Positions 24,938 to 38,455 of a stretch of DNA of 64,000 nucleotides are shown piece after piece. Source of the DNA: Natrinema mahii (GTDB lineage: Archaea; Halobacteriota; Halobacteria; Halobacteriales; Natrialbaceae); the NCBI GenBank assembly GCA_000690595.2, contig JHUT02000002.1, positions 272,878-336,877 on the forward strand. Reading direction: 5' to 3'. The notes beneath the pieces were generated by a model. The model saw nothing but the letters and a program-made list of their open reading frames with translations, was not told where the DNA came from and ran no database searches. Position numbers and translations under genes: made by a program. Each line of letters opens with the position of its first letter. Positions within the stretch are counted from its first letter, which is position 1.

Positions 24938-25387
24938 ATGTCACTCGATGTCGAGGTCCCCGATCCGCCGTCGCTTCACGGCTCCCAGCACCTCGGCGAC
25001 TACGACGCCGTCGAGGAACCCGACGAGCGAACCGGGGATACCGTCCGCCGCGAGGCGCTTGCCGACTTCCTCGAGGCGGGCGCCTGGGAGGACGCCTTCG
25101 ACGAGTGGGCGCGGGAGACGTCCCTGACCGACCGGGAGTTCCGGCTCGTTCGGGAGTACGACCTGCTCGATGCGTTCGACTTCTACTGGAACCAGTCGGC
25201 GGAAGATGTCGGCTACCGAGCGCCGTCGGTGCCGACGGACGCGGTCGCCGATCACGACGACCTCGACGACGTGGACGTCGAGACCATCGAAGAGGAACTG
25301 GAGTCGCTGGGATGGATCGTCAGCGAGGTGTTGGAGACCGACTACATTCATCGCGACGGCGGTGAGTTCGGCTACACCTGGGAGTAG
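24938..25387 (+). CDS. acidic haloarchaeal protein, tandem paralogue 1
   Basis: 149 aa, very acidic and soluble. The core REALADFLEAGAWEDAFDEW, then FRLVREYDLLDAFDFYWNQS and VGYRAPSVP align with the next gene over most of the length. No known domain. A conserved promoter and same-strand order show a local duplication. Possible binding partner or adaptor protein; function unknown. Confidence 0.65.
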   Translation: MSLDVEVPDPPSLHGSQHLGDYDAVEEPDERTGDTVRREALADFLEAGAWEDAFDEWARETSLTDREFRLVREYDLLDAFDFYWNQSAEDVGYRAPSVPTDAVADHDDLDDVDVETIEEELESLGWIVSEVLETDYIHRDGGEFGYTWE

Positions 25388-25480
25388 CGACCGGCCCCAT
25401 GGCCGACGGCTCGGTCGCGTCCCGATCCGAAACCGACGGCGGTGGGAATTCTTATCCGGGAACCCGACCTACGGCCGGGT

Positions 25481-25948
25481 ATGACACTCGAGGTCGAGCC
25501 CCCCGAGCCGCCGGAACTGGAGTTCGTCGATCCCAACGAGTACGACGACGCGACCATCAGCGCCGACGGCGAGGAGATCGACTACCGTCGCGAGGAACTG
25601 CAGGCGTTCCTCGAGGAGGGTGCATGGGAGGAAGCGTTCGACGAGTGGCGGACCGACACCGATCTCGAGCAGCGGGAGTACGGGATCGCGCGGGACCTCG
25701 ACCTCTTTGCCGGCTTCGACTTCTTCTGGGACGACTTCGCCGACCGCGTGGGGTATCACGCGCCCGGCATTCCGGAGGACTGGCAGGCCCGTGAGTACCA
25801 CCCCGAACTCGACACCTGGGGGACCGTCTCCTCGATCAACGCCGAACTCACCGAGTTCGGCCAGATCGTCTCGGTCACGCTCAAGGAGGAGTACGTCGAC
25901 TGGGAGGCCGAGTACGAACCGCCCGAGGACCTGCCGGACTTCGACTGA
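25481..25948 (+). CDS. acidic haloarchaeal protein, tandem paralogue 2
   Basis: 155 aa from the ATG at 25481 (MTLEVEPPEPPELEFVDPNE). EELQAFLEEGAWEEAFDEW, YGIARDLDLFAGFDFFWDDF and VGYHAPGIP mirror paralogue 1; the C-terminal ~45 residues differ more. Aromatic residues in FDFFWDDF-type segments are conserved between the two, suggesting a shared surface or core. Function unknown. Confidence 0.65.
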   Translation: MTLEVEPPEPPELEFVDPNEYDDATISADGEEIDYRREELQAFLEEGAWEEAFDEWRTDTDLEQREYGIARDLDLFAGFDFFWDDFADRVGYHAPGIPEDWQAREYHPELDTWGTVSSINAELTEFGQIVSVTLKEEYVDWEAEYEPPEDLPDFD

Positions 25949-26805: not shown

Positions 26806-29800
26806 TCAGCGAGCGAGCGCCATCGCGACGCCGACCAACAGGAGGCCGAGGAGGACGGCACCGGCCCCGACGGCTGTCTCACCGGTGAGGGCGGCAACGC
26901 CGCCCGCGACGACGCCCGCGCTGCCACCGCCCGCAGCGACCGCGGTCGGAAGCGCCACACCGGCAGTCGTCTCCTCGCGGACGGCCGCGAGGTCCGTCCG
27001 GAGCGACTCGAGATCGTCGGTTCGGTCCGCCCGTTCGTCGACGTCGTCGAGTCGCGCGTCGATGGAGTCGACCCGCTCCTCGAGATCGGACAGTCCCGCC
27101 GAAACCGTCCCGAACCGCTCGTCCAACGAGTCGATCTCGGCCTCGACCGACCCCAGGTCGTCGCCGAGCGCCCCCGTCTCGTCTTCGACCGCACGGACAT
27201 CGCTTCCGAGCGTCGCCACCTCGTCCTCGAGCGAGTCGACCGCCGACGCCGGCGGCATCGAATCGACGGACTCGGCGAGGTCGTCGTACGCCGCACGCAC
27301 CGACTCGAGACGCTCGGCGGTCGCGGACACCTCGTCCTCGAGAGTCGACAGGTCTTCGTCGCTGGTGGCGTCGTCGACCCGCTCCGTGAGGGTTTCGAGG
27401 TCGCTGCCGGTTTCTTCGAGGGCGGATTCGACCGTCTCGAGCGTCGCCGAAACGTCCGCGAGGCGGTCGTCGTGGTCGGCCAGCCGTCGATCGGTATCGT
27501 CGACCTCGGTCTCGAGCGCCGACACCGTCTCGGTGAGCGATTCGGTTTCGGACCCGAGGTCGTCCAGTCGTTCGTCGATCACCTCGAGGTCGGCGTCGAT
27601 CGCGTCGACGTCGTCGGCCACCGCCTCGATCCCGTCGGCGGTTTCGGTCACTGACTCCCGCACCGCCGCGAGCGTCTCCGGCGTGACAGCCTCCTCGTCG
27701 AGTCGGTCGACGGTCGCCTCGAGCTCCGAGAGGTCCGCGGCGATCTCGTCGGTCGCGGTGTCGATCCGGCCCTCGAGGTCCGACTCCGCCCGGCCGAGCC
27801 GCGTCTCGAGGTCGTCTTCGAGAGACGCGAGGGCGTCCGACAGCGCCGCGAGGTCGTCGGCGAGCCCGTCGACCGTCTCGGCGTCGGCGGTCCGATCCTC
27901 GAGGTCGGCCAGCGAGTCCGAAACGGTCGCTACCGTCCCGTCGACCTCCTCGAGGGCCGTCTCGAGAGCCGCCAGCTCCGCCGCGAGCCCGTCGACTCGC
28001 TCGTCGGTCGCCGCCCGATCCTCGAGGTTCGCGCGGGCATCCCGGGCGGCGTCGAGGTCACGCTCGAGCCTCTCGGTCCGGTCGTCCAGCCGCTCGCGAA
28101 CGGTCTCGAGGTCGGCCTCGACGGCCGCGATCCCCTCGTCGATCGCGGTCTCGATTTCGTCGACCCGCGCGTCGGTCCGCTCGGATCGCTCCTCGAGTCG
28201 GCCCGAGACGCCGTCGATCCGCGTCCGCAGTTCCTCGAGCCGTCCCGAGACCCCCTCGAGTCGGGTCTCGGTGCGGTCGGTCGCCGCTTCGAGGTCGTCG
28301 AGGGCTGCTGTCACCTCCGCGGTCGTCTCCTCGAGGGCTTCGAGATCGGCGTCGGTCGCCGCCGTTTCCTCGAGGACCTCGAGGTCGTCTCGAAGGTCGT
28401 CGAGGCCGTCCTCGGCCGTTTCCGCCCGCTCGGATACCGCGTCGAGATCGCTCCCAAGGTCGTCCAGTCGCTTCTCGATGGCGGCCCGCTCGTCGGCCGC
28501 GGTCGCGTCCAGTTCCGCCAGCTCGTCGTCGACGCCGCCGACGTCCGCCTCGAGGGCCGCGAGCGCGTCCGAGAGCGCCTCGAGATCGGTATCGAGCCGG
28601 TCGACGTCGTCCGAGACGTCCGCGACCGCCGACTCGTCGGCGTGCGTTTCGCTCTCGTCCGCGAGGTCGGCTAGTTCGTCGGCGAACGACTCGAGGCGCT
28701 CGTCGAGTTCGTCGACCGTGTCGGCCGGCGCGGTCCGCTCCTCGACGTACTCGAGGTCCTCGATCAGTTCCTCGACGTCCGCCCGGACCGACTCGATCTC
28801 CGCGTCGCGATCGGCGAGCCGATCGAACAACTGGTCGATGGCGTCGTCGCTGGGGTCGGTGCGTGACGGCTCGTCGAAGGCGAGTTCGGTCGGCCCGCCG
28901 GCGGTCGTCGACTCCTCGTCGTCCCCCGAGTCGTCGGTAGCGGCGCTCGGGGGAGTGACGGCATCCCCATCGTCGCCGCCGGCCGCCGGGTCGTCCCACG
29001 TGATCGCCTCGTAGGCATCGACGTCGTCGTTCGCCGCCGCGAGGGCACCCCTGACGGCGCTTTCCGCGGGCGCGTCGGCGAGTCGGACGCCGCGGACCGA
29101 AAACGGGAGCGCGGCCGCGTCGAACCGGCCGCCGAACAGGTACTCGACGCCCTCGACCGCGCCCGCTCCCGCGATGGCGATCGGGACGGACAGCCCCTCC
29201 TGGACGTCGCTCTCGTCGGCTTCCTCCCGGATCGCGTCGATCAACGCGGCGATCAGTTCGTCGAACGCTCCCGCGAGCGCGCTCTCGATCCCGCCGGCGG
29301 CCGCGTCCGGATCGAGCGTGAACTCCTCGAGGACGCCGGCGATCCGTCCCGGCTCGTGGCCCGTTTCGGCGGCCGCCCGCTCGACGAGCCACTCCCGACC
29401 CTTCGCGAGCGAGCAGGTCATCGCCGGCACGCCGTAGTACGCAAGCGTCGCGTTCGTGGTCCGGGCCCCAAGGTTGATCCCGAGCCCGGTGTAGTTGTCG
29501 CCGGCCAGTTGGTCGTAGATCACCGCGAACCCCGTGCTGATCGGCGTCGCCTCGAGGCCGCGATCGGCCAGCGCGGCCTCGACCGCCTCGCGATGCGCAT
29601 CGGTCGAGACCGTCGCATCGACCCGCGGCCCCGGCGTCGTATAACAGAGCCGTTCGTCGGACACCTCCTCGAGTAAGTCGCCGACGACGGCGTCCAGCGC
29701 GGGCGTCGCGTACGCCGTCGTCTCCGCCGCGAGGACGCCGCCGTCGAACACCGACCGGGGCTCCTCGTCGGTCTCGTCGGCGACCGTCCGGGCGTCGTCG

Positions 29801-29979
29801 CCGACTACGTACGTCGTTCCGTCCGCACGTATCGTGTGTTCCTCGGGGATCCCTGCCGCCTCGAGGGCGGCGTCGTCGACCGGAGCGACGACCGGCGGGA
29901 CCGCGTCGATCCCCTCCCCTCCGTCCGCGTCGGTAGCGGCCCGTACCGTCCCCGGGCCGATGTCGAGACCGTATGCCAT
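26806..29979 (-). CDS. actin-like ATPase domain + long coiled coil + membrane anchor
   Basis: A 1057-aa protein with three parts. Residues 1-330 look like an actin/MreB/Hsp70-type ATPase: phosphate-1 loop YGLDIGPGTVRAATDAD, phosphate-2-like GLGINLGARTTNATLAYYG and adenosine-like PIAIAGAGAVEGVEYLFGG. The usual Asp of the phosphate-2 loop is Asn here. After an acidic linker, ~residues 375-1000 are heptad-rich coiled coil (LDDLRDDLEVLEETAATDAD and many similar repeats). The last ~50 residues hold two hydrophobic helices (ALPTAVAAGGGSAGVVAGGV; GAVLLGLLLVGVAMALA). I infer a membrane-tethered cytoskeletal or scaffolding protein; no experimental match is claimed. Confidence 0.75.
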   Translation of the reverse strand: MAYGLDIGPGTVRAATDADGGEGIDAVPPVVAPVDDAALEAAGIPEEHTIRADGTTYVVGDDARTVADETDEEPRSVFDGGVLAAETTAYATPALDAVVGDLLEEVSDERLCYTTPGPRVDATVSTDAHREAVEAALADRGLEATPISTGFAVIYDQLAGDNYTGLGINLGARTTNATLAYYGVPAMTCSLAKGREWLVERAAAETGHEPGRIAGVLEEFTLDPDAAAGGIESALAGAFDELIAALIDAIREEADESDVQEGLSVPIAIAGAGAVEGVEYLFGGRFDAAALPFSVRGVRLADAPAESAVRGALAAANDDVDAYEAITWDDPAAGGDDGDAVTPPSAATDDSGDDEESTTAGGPTELAFDEPSRTDPSDDAIDQLFDRLADRDAEIESVRADVEELIEDLEYVEERTAPADTVDELDERLESFADELADLADESETHADESAVADVSDDVDRLDTDLEALSDALAALEADVGGVDDELAELDATAADERAAIEKRLDDLGSDLDAVSERAETAEDGLDDLRDDLEVLEETAATDADLEALEETTAEVTAALDDLEAATDRTETRLEGVSGRLEELRTRIDGVSGRLEERSERTDARVDEIETAIDEGIAAVEADLETVRERLDDRTERLERDLDAARDARANLEDRAATDERVDGLAAELAALETALEEVDGTVATVSDSLADLEDRTADAETVDGLADDLAALSDALASLEDDLETRLGRAESDLEGRIDTATDEIAADLSELEATVDRLDEEAVTPETLAAVRESVTETADGIEAVADDVDAIDADLEVIDERLDDLGSETESLTETVSALETEVDDTDRRLADHDDRLADVSATLETVESALEETGSDLETLTERVDDATSDEDLSTLEDEVSATAERLESVRAAYDDLAESVDSMPPASAVDSLEDEVATLGSDVRAVEDETGALGDDLGSVEAEIDSLDERFGTVSAGLSDLEERVDSIDARLDDVDERADRTDDLESLRTDLAAVREETTAGVALPTAVAAGGGSAGVVAGGVAALTGETAVGAGAVLLGLLLVGVAMALAR

Positions 29980-30312: not shown

Positions 30313-31827
30313 ATGTCTGAAACCGGGACGGAGTCCCGTCCGCTGGTCCGACAGCTTCCGGATCCAACCACAGCGTCGAACGTCCGGTATAACCCGTCGC
30401 TCGAGGAACTGCGCGACCTCGCCGACCACGAGGAGACGACCACCGAGTTCGGGTCGCCTTCCTACGTCAGCGAGTACCGCTCGCGGAGCGCCGATCGGAC
30501 GAAAAACGCCGTCGACGACGAGTTCGACGAGCGCGATCACGAACTGATCGACGACGCCGTCGACCGCACCGGCGAGGTCGAGTTCGTCTGCGTCGACCGA
30601 CTGATGGGGCGCCATCCCGAGGCGTCGTTTTGCTGTCGGCTCTTCGTTCCCGTCGAACACGCTCGCATCGCCTACGCGTGGGCGAACCTGTTCGAGCCCG
30701 CCGACGGTCGGGACCCGGACCTCTATACGGTCCAGCTTCCCGACTACGACGAGACTGCCATCCGCGTGCTTCCCGACACCGGCTTCACCGCCGTGTTAGG
30801 CAGCGACTACACCGGCGAAGCCAAAAAGTCGTTCCTCCGGCTGTTCATGTACCGGATCAAACAGCAGGGCGGGCTGGGCCTCCACGCGGGAAGCAAACGG
30901 GTCCGCGTCCGCGACGCCGACGACGACCTGCGAACCGTCGGGCAGGTCTTCATGGGGCTGTCCGCGACCGGCAAGTCGACGCTTACCTCCCACGGCTGCT
31001 GGCTCGAGGACCCCGAGGACGCCTCGATGCTGCAGGACGACGTCTGTGGCCTGCTCTCTGACGGCTCCGTCGCCGGCAGCGAGGGTCAGGGGCTGTTCAT
31101 CAAGACGATCGGCCTCGGCGAGGACGAACAGCCCGAACTCTACGAGGCCGCGACCGACGAGTCGGCGATCCTCGAGAACGTCGCCGTCGACGACGACGAC
31201 GGCACCGTCGACTTCGACGAGGACCGCTACACCTCGAACTCCCGCGCGATCATCCAGCGCGACCAGCTCGAGAGCGCCGACGAGGAGATCGACCTCGGGA
31301 GCATGGATCAGGCCTTCTTCATCACCCGAAACCCCCTGATGCCGCCGGTCGCCAAGCTCGACGAGGAGCAGGCGGCTGTCGCCTTCATGCTCGGCGAGTC
31401 GATCGAGACCAGCGCGGGCGACCCCTCCCGCGCCGGCGAGTCGATCCGCGTCGTCGGGACCAACCCCTTCATCGTCGGCCCGGAGGGCGAGGAGGGCAAC
31501 ATCTTCCACGAGCTGATCGACATCCTCGACGTCGACTGCTACGTCATCAACACGGGCTATCTCGGCGACAAGTCCACGGACATCGGCGTCACCGAGTCGG
31601 TGACGATCCTCACCGAGGCCGCCCGCGGCACCATCGAATGGACGTACGACGAGCGGATGGGCCTGACCATCCCCGAGTCGATCCCGGAACTCGACATCGA
31701 GGACTACTACGTCCCCGACCACGTCGACGACTACGAGGACGCGCTCGCCGAACTGCGCGCCGAGCGCCGCGAGTACCTCGAGCAGTTCGACGAGCTTCGC
31801 GAGGAGATCAAAGACGCCGTCTACTGA
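30313..31827 (+). CDS. pckA: phosphoenolpyruvate carboxykinase (ATP)
   Basis: A 504-aa enzyme making PEP and CO2 from oxaloacetate and ATP, the entry to gluconeogenesis. The P-loop GLSATGKSTLTSH lies at ~215-227; DDVCGLLSDGS supplies metal-binding Asps; GLGLHAGSKR and INTGYLGDKSTDIGVTES fit the ATP-type family. Archaea vary between ATP and GTP enzymes; the kinase-1a loop here indicates ATP. Followed by a degenerate family-2 palindrome. Confidence 0.93.
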   Translation: MSETGTESRPLVRQLPDPTTASNVRYNPSLEELRDLADHEETTTEFGSPSYVSEYRSRSADRTKNAVDDEFDERDHELIDDAVDRTGEVEFVCVDRLMGRHPEASFCCRLFVPVEHARIAYAWANLFEPADGRDPDLYTVQLPDYDETAIRVLPDTGFTAVLGSDYTGEAKKSFLRLFMYRIKQQGGLGLHAGSKRVRVRDADDDLRTVGQVFMGLSATGKSTLTSHGCWLEDPEDASMLQDDVCGLLSDGSVAGSEGQGLFIKTIGLGEDEQPELYEAATDESAILENVAVDDDDGTVDFDEDRYTSNSRAIIQRDQLESADEEIDLGSMDQAFFITRNPLMPPVAKLDEEQAAVAFMLGESIETSAGDPSRAGESIRVVGTNPFIVGPEGEEGNIFHELIDILDVDCYVINTGYLGDKSTDIGVTESVTILTEAARGTIEWTYDERMGLTIPESIPELDIEDYYVPDHVDDYEDALAELRAERREYLEQFDELREEIKDAVY

Positions 31828-35973: not shown

Positions 35974-36324
35974 ATGGAATACGTATACGCTGCACTCATC
36001 CTGAACGAATCGGGCGAAGAGATCAACGAAGACAACCTGACGAACGTGCTCGACGCCGCGGGCGTCGACGTCGAGGAGTCCCGCGTCAAGGCCCTCGTCG
36101 CCGCGCTCGAGGACGTCGACATCGACGACGCGGTCTCCGAGGCCGCAGCCGTCCCCGCCGGCGGGGCCGCCGCTGGCGGCGCTGCAGGTGCCGAGGAAGC
36201 TGCCGACGACGGCGACGACGAAGCCGAGGAAGCCGAAGAGACCAGCGACGTGCCGGACACGACGGACGACGACGACGAAGACGACGAGGCCGACGGCGAG
36301 GGTCTCGGCGAACTCTTCGGATAA
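35974..36324 (+). CDS. rpl12: 50S ribosomal protein L12 (P1)
   Basis: A 116-aa archaeal P1-type stalk protein. The N-terminal dimerisation helices ([20 protein letters not shown]) are followed by an Ala/Gly hinge ([20 protein letters not shown]), an extreme acidic stretch and the factor-binding tail EGLGELFG. Last gene of the L1-L10-L12 operon, 18 bp after rpl10, preceded by GGAGGA. Confidence 0.95.
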
Positions 36325-36779
36325 CGTTCCCGTCGGTTCGGCTCCGACGAGTTGCAATCCCGAATTTTCTTTCGACTCGAGATCGAGTGGCGACGCCGAT
36401 CGAGGCCGAAACCGGAATCAGATTGTCTCCGAGAGTGGCGATGGTGAGTACAGTAGCGGTCAGGCTACTTACTGAGCGACGATTAATTACGGGGCCGAGA
36501 CCAATACACCCGGCGACGTTGGTGGGACGATTGAGGGTTGAGTCGACGGTAAGAACGCGTTTGAGTGCGATGAAGGCCACATCTCTCTGTGACTACCACC
36601 TCGTATCCCTTCTTCAGATCTTGTATTTCTTGCTAAGATCAATCTCAGGACACGTACTGGTGCGTCCCCGAGGACATTAGCGGTCACCGTCTCTTGAAGA
36701 TCCGTGATAGATATCCTATTTATCCAAGTATAATTTTATATAGAAAGTATTAATATAATATGTTTTAAACTTGGCTTTG
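36325..36779. other. AT-rich spacer at the edge of the accessory island
   Basis: About 455 bp without a convincing gene; short frames on both strands lack protein-like composition. GC falls steadily after rpl12. TTATATAG at 36737-36744 followed by TATTAATATAATATG looks like a promoter for the split halocin gene. Confidence 0.5.
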
Positions 36780-37758
36780 ATGACACGAGAAGAAGACGAT
36801 AATGGTAGTGACGGTACCCCATCATTCAATCGACGTAACGCATTACAAACAATCAGTGGGGGAATGTTCGCCCTAACTGGACTCTCAGGAACCGGGGGTG
36901 CTATAGTAGCCGCTGAAAGTCATTGCACACCTGATCGCACGATAGCGTTGCGATCAGTGTGTAAATCGTTTCAACGGCTACTATAGCCAATCAGATACAG
37001 ATGATGTCCCCCTTCCAGATGTAGAAGAGCTATCCGGCGATGAAAAGAAAAAATACATTTTGAAGGCATCGGCCTCTCCTGAATACAAAACGTTACTGCG
37101 AGAGTCGTCGATAGTTTCTCGCCGGTCAGTCCAACTCGATGATTCCAGAGTAGTGCGTTCGGAGTGGAAAGAGTCCTCAAAAGAAAGCGGCCCACGGCAC
37201 ATCGTCGAATTCCCTGTGAAATCTTCTCCAGATCGCGGTCGAAAAGGAAGAACAACAGACGATGAAGACGGAGATACAGTTGTCAACGTAGTATTCGAAT
37301 CGGATGGTTCGGTCTCAGCCAAGGCGACACGCTTCAAGGATGGTGAAGACGGTGATATCACAATACAACTTGATGTAACGACCAACGAGGTTACTGCTCA
37401 GCGAGCGAGTAACCAAGGAGGCGTTAGATTAGAATCGACGACTGAAACAGTCAATCCCTCAAAGGGGGTATACCCAACCGACCCCTCGGAAGTGACGATA
37501 CAGGGGCACGGTTGTGGATGCACATTGAAATGCAGTCTCTGTGTTCAGATATACAAACATGTCTGTAAGCATGGGTGTTGGGGAGGTGCTTCAACTATCT
37601 GCGCAGTACTTGATATTGGCGGTATCCCAGGAAGTCTCACGTGTGCGACTATCGCAAGAACCGTGTGCAGGAAAGAAACATCGAGTTGGGATTGCGGTAG
37701 TCTGGCAGCCCAGAAGTTCTGCAACAAGAACTTCGACCTCTGTGACGCAGTTCTATAA
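36780..37758 (+). pseudogene. halocin C8-like bacteriocin precursor, split by an 86-bp repeat
   Basis: Part 1 (from ATG 36780): a 40-residue start with Tat motif, NRRNALQTISGGMFALTGLS. Part 2 (after 36987, other frame): propeptide region (LPDVEELSGDEKKKYILKAS, then PRHIVEFPVKSS) and a C-terminal Cys-rich peptide from ~37500 with 12 cysteines (CGCTLKCSLC; HVCKHGCWGGASTIC; CGSLAAQKFC). This order and Cys pattern match halocin C8 precursors, whose mature peptide has 10 Cys and kills other haloarchaea. The repeat (36901-36986) breaks the frame; removing 85 bp would rejoin the parts as GTGG-AQ-SDTDD, giving ~296 aa. AT-rich compared with neighbours. Confidence 0.75.
36901..36986. repeat. 86-bp palindromic repeat family 1, copy B (inside halocin gene)
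   Basis: CTATAGTAGCCGCTGAAA at the left and TTTCAACGGCTACTATAG at the right are near-perfect inverted arms; CACCTGATCGCA / TGCGATCAGTGTGT are the inner arms. It is the reverse complement of copy A, with ~93% identity by eye. It has no gene of its own. Insertion adds a frameshift and stop codons to the halocin gene. No clear target duplication is seen. Confidence 0.9.
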
Positions 37759-37811
37759 GTTCAACATCCTACAATCACCTACTTTATTAATTGACATTAT
37801 AGTATTTATTT

Positions 37812-37997
37812 CTATAGGATTCCTCGACAATAGTTGTAAGAAGCTACGAGTAGTATGAACCCAACCCCTATAATGATACTTTCGGCTGCCAGCCCAAATA
37901 TACTGCCCCGACCAAACATAAAATTCACCAAAAAGTAGATGACAATAAGAATTAATCCCTGTTCCACGATGACTCTCTTTTCATTCGACTCCAACAT
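37812..37997 (-). CDS. two-helix membrane miniprotein next to halocin gene
   Basis: 61 aa, convergent to the halocin gene. Two strong helices (VEQGLILIVIYFLVNFMFG; AESIIIGVGFILLVASYNY), basic N-terminus, AT-rich codons like the halocin gene. Its place suggests a possible immunity or accessory protein, but C8-type immunity is normally carried within the precursor, so this is a guess. Could also be spurious. Confidence 0.4.
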   Translation of the reverse strand: MLESNEKRVIVEQGLILIVIYFLVNFMFGRGSIFGLAAESIIIGVGFILLVASYNYCRGIL

Positions 37998-38129
37998 ATT
38001 TCCGAATTAATATTGGGTATATTAAATGTCTTGCTTTTGTATAGCGTGCCAGAACCAAGTCACGTCACGAGGGTCGTCCAAAATTGAGGGTATAATGTGG
38101 TTCAGTCCGACCGGTACCACCATATCAGG

Positions 38130-38455
38130 TCGTGTGCATTAACAGCAGCGACGACCGGCGAGCGAGCGGCCCGCCTTGAGACCCTGTCGACGCTCAGCGA
38201 GACTGCTTTGAGCCCGTGGGAGGGTGATCTCGGCGAGCATTACGGGGGACTCGAGGAAACCCACATCGACGGCTTCGAGCAACACAAACGACGGATTCAC
38301 GGTCCAACCGTGACGACTTGCTCGACGCGTTCGTACTCGCGGCTACGTCGCAAGCGAGCAATCTCCGGCGGCTCTCGTCGTTGCGGATAGCGCGATTTCA
38401 ACCGACGACGAGACCGGCTTCCCCCAGGAAATCGTCGATCACGATCCGGAACAGT
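38130..38455 (+). pseudogene. decayed DUF429-like gene
   Basis: Three frames must be joined. The first reads ALSPWEGDLGEHYGGLEETH; from 38312 another frame reads DDLLDAFVLAATSQASNLRR; then ADSAISTDDETGFPQEIV follows in a third. The DDLLDAFVLA and DxETGxPQEIV segments resemble the C-terminus of DUF429 (RNase H-fold) proteins. No start or intact N-terminus remains. It marks the right side of the accessory island. Confidence 0.5.

Follow-up and report, generated by a model that had tools for sequence, protein, structure and literature searches.

A volactin paralogue with a long coiled coil and a likely membrane anchor in Natrinema mahii and related haloarchaea

The window analyzed here, 64,000 nucleotides of Natrinema mahii contig JHUT02000002.1, encodes a protein of 1057 residues in which an actin-fold head of the volactin family is joined to an acidic linker, a heptad coiled coil of about 620 residues and a hydrophobic, Gly-rich C-terminus (Table 1). 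This long form is an apparently undescribed version of archaeal actin, not a separate kind of protein, and its gene is a paralogue of volA rather than volA itself or its orthologue. We put at close to, though below, an even chance the reading that it is a tail-anchored, probably non-hydrolysing volactin whose head binds or caps VolA filaments, tethering these to the membrane. In this natural protein, found in the cultured genera Natrinema, Natrialba, Natronorubrum and Haloterrigena, a volactin head is combined with a likely membrane anchor; it clearly exemplifies an actin paralogue that lacks the catalytic residue and has gained a putative tether.

No description of the long-tailed architecture was found in the open-access literature; subscription journals or supplements (for example Supplementary Note 5 of PMC10869688) may differ. 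An earlier sequence-only reading of this DNA, which knew of no characterized protein with this layout, thus holds for the layout as a whole, as far as the literature could be searched, but not for the head, which belongs to the characterized volactin family.

Table 1. Features of the long-tailed volactin gene and its divergent neighbor, in window positions
Feature	Positions	Strand	Basis
Whole gene, long-tailed volactin, 1057 aa plus stop	26806..29979	-	ORF, Pfam, relatives
Actin-fold (Volactin) head, residues 1-320	29020..29979	-	PF25216, AF2, VIA-align
T149, site of the MreB catalytic Glu (E143 in E. coli)	29533..29535	-	hhalign to MreB, residue tally
N169, site of the phosphate-2 Asp (MreB D165)	29473..29475	-	hhalign, residue tally
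Acidic low-complexity linker, about residues 321-386	28822..29019	-	sequence
Heptad coiled coil, about residues 387-1005	26965..28821	-	heptad spectrum, autocorrelation, AF2 helix 910-1007
Conserved Gly-rich hydrophobic C-terminus, likely membrane anchor, about residues 1013-1057	26809..26943	-	conservation, AF2 helices
ATP-type PEP carboxykinase, divergent neighbor, synteny marker only	30313..31827	+	PF01293 E 3e-56

Architecture of the long form

The open reading frame begins with ATG, and its first residues, MAYGLDIG, align with the VolA start MAKGLDVG. Residues 1-316 match the Pfam Volactin family (PF25216) over the whole 321-position profile, with an E-value of 1.2e-122 and a score of 409.9 bits against a curated cut-off of 35. 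An AF2 model of residues 1-330, built from an alignment of 61 volactin-family heads, reached a pLDDT of 90.3 and a pTM of 0.90. Foldseek returned MamK and MreB as its best matches, with actin also matched, and VIA-align gave Z 26.9 for MamK (289 residues, 3.2 Å), Z 24-25 for MreB and Z 23.6 for crenactin. The actin-like fold that the sequence-only reading had assigned to residues 1-330, proposing comparison with MreB and crenactin among others, is thus what structure prediction returned, and the characterized homologue, VolA, has a cytoskeletal role. A sequence search of the PDB gave weak matches only, to FtsA (E 9.5e-5, falling in the C-terminal part of the head) and to the BeeR-filament protein (E 0.0017). 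The MreB_Mbl profile did not match the window head and matched VolA only below threshold.

The region that follows the linker, about 60% of the protein, carries a strong heptad signal. Spectral power at period 3.5 was 12.4, whereas none of 1000 shuffles exceeded 6.5, and autocorrelation was strongest at lags 7 and 14. In 28-residue windows, 77% of the a/d sites were hydrophobic, against 58% (maximum 63%) in shuffled sequences. As one continuous rod, the coil would measure about 92 nm. Together with the frame and the head, these data bear out the 1057-residue combination of actin-like and coiled-coil parts that had been proposed from the sequence.

The last 45 or so residues are almost devoid of charge and rich in Gly. 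AF2, run on the last 150 residues, predicted a helix at about 910-1007, a Gly-rich loop, and helices at about 1021-1033 (low confidence) and 1035-1056 (fair confidence). The terminal hydrophobic segment holds zero or one charge in 37 of 40 sequences, and an Arg or Lys lies within the last six residues in 33 of the 40, a pattern that is as expected for an anchor with its C-terminus inside. The Gly-rich segment (AGGGGAGVVAGG...) is conserved across full-length relatives. Our results therefore support the hydrophobic C-terminal anchor of the membrane hairpin claimed earlier; the two-helix form is plausible, not proven, because only the last helix was predicted with fair confidence.

Head and tail are conserved among 60 full-length members of 575-1313 residues and the length of the coil varies, even between proteins with 97% head identity (1263 versus 1149 residues). 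Among the 58 coil indels counted in 15 close pairs without overlap, 18 were multiples of seven (8 expected; p 9e-4) and 38 were equal to 0, 3 or 4 modulo 7 (25 expected; p 4e-4); these counts cover the coil alone and depend on the gap costs of the aligner. They are moderate evidence for a spacer that would be under coiled-coil constraint, as if packing mattered and exact length did not.

Known long coiled-coil families (SMC, Rad50, crescentin, ASRP, FlaC) scored below their curated cut-offs or gave short generic coil matches; the crescentin profile Rod_CreS, for instance, scored 33.4 bits under a cut-off of 100. An artefact of GC-rich sequence was likewise rejected, because head and tail are conserved in about 85 relatives and so, for the most part, is the synteny. 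A Ser/Arg-rich open frame of 709 residues (26885-29014, plus strand) runs antisense to the coil and is a shadow frame of the GC-rich coiled-coil codons.

Active site and relation to VolA

To place the catalytic residues, the volactin alignment was compared by hhalign with E. coli MreB (E 4.3e-5, 275 columns), which put T149 at E143 and N169 at D165. The Asn that had been noted in place of the phosphate-2 Asp is thus correct for the window protein, which, having T149, N169, T174 and N176, lacks both that Asp and the MreB E...T-X-[D/E] catalytic motif. At position 149 all 22 VolA sequences have Glu and none of 62 long forms does (Lys in 22, Thr in 19, Arg in 16, others in 5). The phosphate-2 Asp site is Ser in all 22 VolA proteins and mostly Cys in the long forms, with Asp in 2 of 62. 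The odd Asn therefore belongs to a departure seen across the family; what sets the long forms apart is the loss of the glutamate. The long forms also show degraded phosphate-2 Gly residues (171 and 173 are often Glu, Gln or Arg) and have lost the second Gly of the adenosine loop (272). D6, the phosphate-1 Asp, remains in 59 of 62, so nucleotide binding may persist.

E143 of E. coli MreB corresponds to Caulobacter E140, which holds the attacking water together with T167 (PMC4051119), and an E143G change lowers the catalytic efficiency of MreB about 13-fold (PMC9137614). Low ATPase activity also occurs naturally in a paralogue, MreB3 of Spiroplasma (PMC9597168). Hydrolysis by the long form is thus likely to be weak or absent, with nucleotide binding possible. 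VolA has neither the phosphate-2 Asp nor the Thr/acidic partners of the MreB motif, and its polymers, described from H. volcanii, are dynamic, presumably without this Asp; the rules of MreB catalysis may therefore not transfer, or only in part.

An ordinary VolA-type gene, with an open frame of 371 residues, lies in the same genome, on the same contig and 29 kb beyond the window. The two kinds of protein share the actin fold, the N-terminal start and membership of one family over the full profile, and are encoded in the same genomes. VolA frames, however, are mostly of about 340-400 residues, have neither coil nor anchor and retain the catalytic Glu, whereas the long forms add the linker, coiled coil and hydrophobic tail, diverge faster and are largely confined to one family. 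The window protein is about 35-39% identical to VolA, and the median identity of the head to VolA is about 34%. A tree, read as unrooted, put 22 VolA sequences on one side of a branch with support 93/98 and 41 long forms on the other. With 1057 residues, T149 in place of Glu and a position outside the VolA side of the tree, the window protein does not qualify as a VolA orthologue. Median pairwise head identity was 51% among long forms, within the family, and 82% among VolA sequences from four families; long-form heads thus evolve much faster.

Halobacterium salinarum salactin is likewise a haloarchaeal actin-fold protein with an extra tail, but that tail is N-terminal, charged and disordered, and a coiled coil or membrane anchor is not mentioned (PMC10746226). 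Given the strong Volactin match, grouping with salactin, which was compared by description, is unlikely.

A possible tether for VolA filaments

In H. volcanii, VolA (HVO_2015) forms dynamic filaments and affects disk shape; filament tips touch or bind the membrane, and volactin-binding factors of unknown identity have been suggested (PMC10869688). A degenerate volactin on a long anchored rod fits the part of a tether, cap or nucleator for such filaments, with VolA as the probable partner by homology. We envisage that the hydrophobic C-terminus would insert in the cytoplasmic membrane and that the coil would form a rod, probably dimeric and here up to about 90 nm long. The head would be part of VolA filaments or bind to them, acting as a subunit of poor ATPase activity, a cap or a nucleator, and the rod would set how far from the membrane the VolA polymers are held. 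More tentatively, Natrialbaceae might possess a two-actin system, in which dynamic VolA is combined with an ATPase-dead, membrane-anchored volactin, carried on a coiled-coil rod of variable length, that sets where filaments start or end and how far from the membrane they lie. The suggestion made from the sequence, of a membrane-bound cytoskeletal or shape-determining scaffold, is reasonable as an inference and is here sharpened to a degenerate VolA paralogue, probably a tether or cap.

Several observations limit the tether proposal. H. volcanii anchors VolA filaments without a long form, so such a tether is not generally needed; volA is the only actin homologue identified in that species (PMC7617734), and the long form would therefore be a clade-specific addition. 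The gene is also dispensable, being absent from about a third of the family's genomes and lost in congeners. Because the head is faster evolving and has only about 34% median identity to VolA, its filament contacts may have changed. A separate point concerns cell shape: the gene is present both in Natrialba, which are rods, and in Natronococcus, which are cocci, making a simple connection with rod-shaped cells unlikely.

It seems to us rather unlikely that the long form instead builds a separate, VolA-independent cytoskeleton at the membrane, in which ATP-bound heads polymerize and turn over slowly and the coil serves as spacer or cross-linker. The divergent head, the position of the long forms across the tree from VolA and the finding that low-ATPase actins such as SpeMreB3 still polymerize (PMC9597168) argue for it. 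A stalk of about 90 nm would nevertheless be odd for a polymer lying parallel to the membrane, and the long form nearly always coexists with VolA, a co-occurrence that proves little because VolA is near universal in the family.

The degraded active site, with its missing catalytic Glu, altered phosphate-2 Gly residues and lost adenosine-loop Gly, would also suit a pseudo-actin receptor, whose non-polymerizing head docks another ligand (a signalling protein, the chromosome or a surface structure) at the end of a stalk made of coil and anchor. We regard this as unlikely, as the fold and the phosphate-1 Asp are kept and the Volactin profile is matched from end to end. Most improbable is a structural protein like intermediate filaments or SMC, with the rod as its working part and the head as an accessory: the coil makes up most of the chain and has sub-threshold matches to the crescentin rod and SMC/ASRP models, but these are generic and under the curated cut-offs (33 versus 100 bits; 94 versus 300), and coil length is the least conserved feature of a protein whose head and tail are conserved.

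MamK and MreB, the best structural matches of the long-form head (Z 26.9 and about 24.5), have no fused coiled coil or C-terminal anchor, although MreB also works at the membrane. In the analogous cases of RodZ-MreB and of Mad28/MamK with their coiled-coil partners, an actin-fold filament is linked to membrane or coiled-coil proteins, but the actin and the linker are separate proteins, whereas the long form unites them in a single chain. FtsA is an actin-fold protein whose C-terminus binds the membrane and which tethers the FtsZ filament; it does so with a short amphipathic helix and a tubulin cargo, in contrast to the coil of about 620 residues and the hydrophobic Gly-rich segment of the long form. 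As a VolA tether, the long form would be a one-piece linker between actin filaments and membrane for which we know no counterpart in bacteria or eukaryotes.

Distribution, losses and genomic neighborhood

Of 125 Natrialbaceae genomes searched, 124 had a volactin match and about 85 a long form. Carriers include Natrinema, Natronorubrum, Haloterrigena, Natrialba, Halobiforma, Natronococcus, Halopiger, Halovivax, Natrarchaeobius and others, plus Halorubellus. Outside Natrialbaceae, long forms were detected in three of nine genomes of one family (780-842 residues) and in a single metagenome-assembled genome belonging to a further family; among 148 genomes of family f4 there was none of such length, the longest volactin frame having 606 residues. 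The frame starting at position 1600 of locus L123 (genome G422), in a metagenome-assembled genome from a haloarchaeal family other than Natrialbaceae, encodes a very divergent long volactin (PF25216 E 2.5e-28) that has a coil and a hydrophobic C-terminus.

Across most of the family the long gene occupies the same slot, between pckA/rpl11 and a conserved stretch that contains two unknown genes in tandem along with a HAD phosphatase; in the window it is transcribed away from pckA. An intact long form is missing in 9 of 29 congeners. The slot was examined in seven of these nine; none had an intact copy there, and two carried decayed remnants, namely pieces of the head in L198 (9364-9684) and one piece of the tail in L197 (9275-9613). 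The long form is thus vertically inherited, has been lost in some lineages and is not essential, being dispensable on the evidence of these losses and of its absence from about a third of the family's genomes. A horizontal origin is not supported, with the rpl11/pckA synteny kept through most of the family and remnants marking losses. In one congener that has the long form, VolA is split over two frames (G397:C3:599079-600040) and may be broken or misassembled.

No operon partner was found, and in the window there is no convincing gene between the long gene and position 25948; several relatives have extra ORFs downstream of the long gene. Two tandem paralogous acidic proteins (24938-25387 and 25442-25948, plus strand), which lie beside the long volactin in many Natrialbaceae, had no match in Pfam, PHROGs or NCBIfam. 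Elsewhere in the window, an AT-rich island (36300-38300, GC 0.42-0.54) directly follows rpl12. There, an ORF at 37060-37758 (plus strand) matches the NCBIfam model halocin_C8_dom (TIGR04449, E 1.2e-12), indicating a halocin C8-like peptide antibiotic, and a Tat-signal-like ORF (36771-36986) lies just upstream of it.
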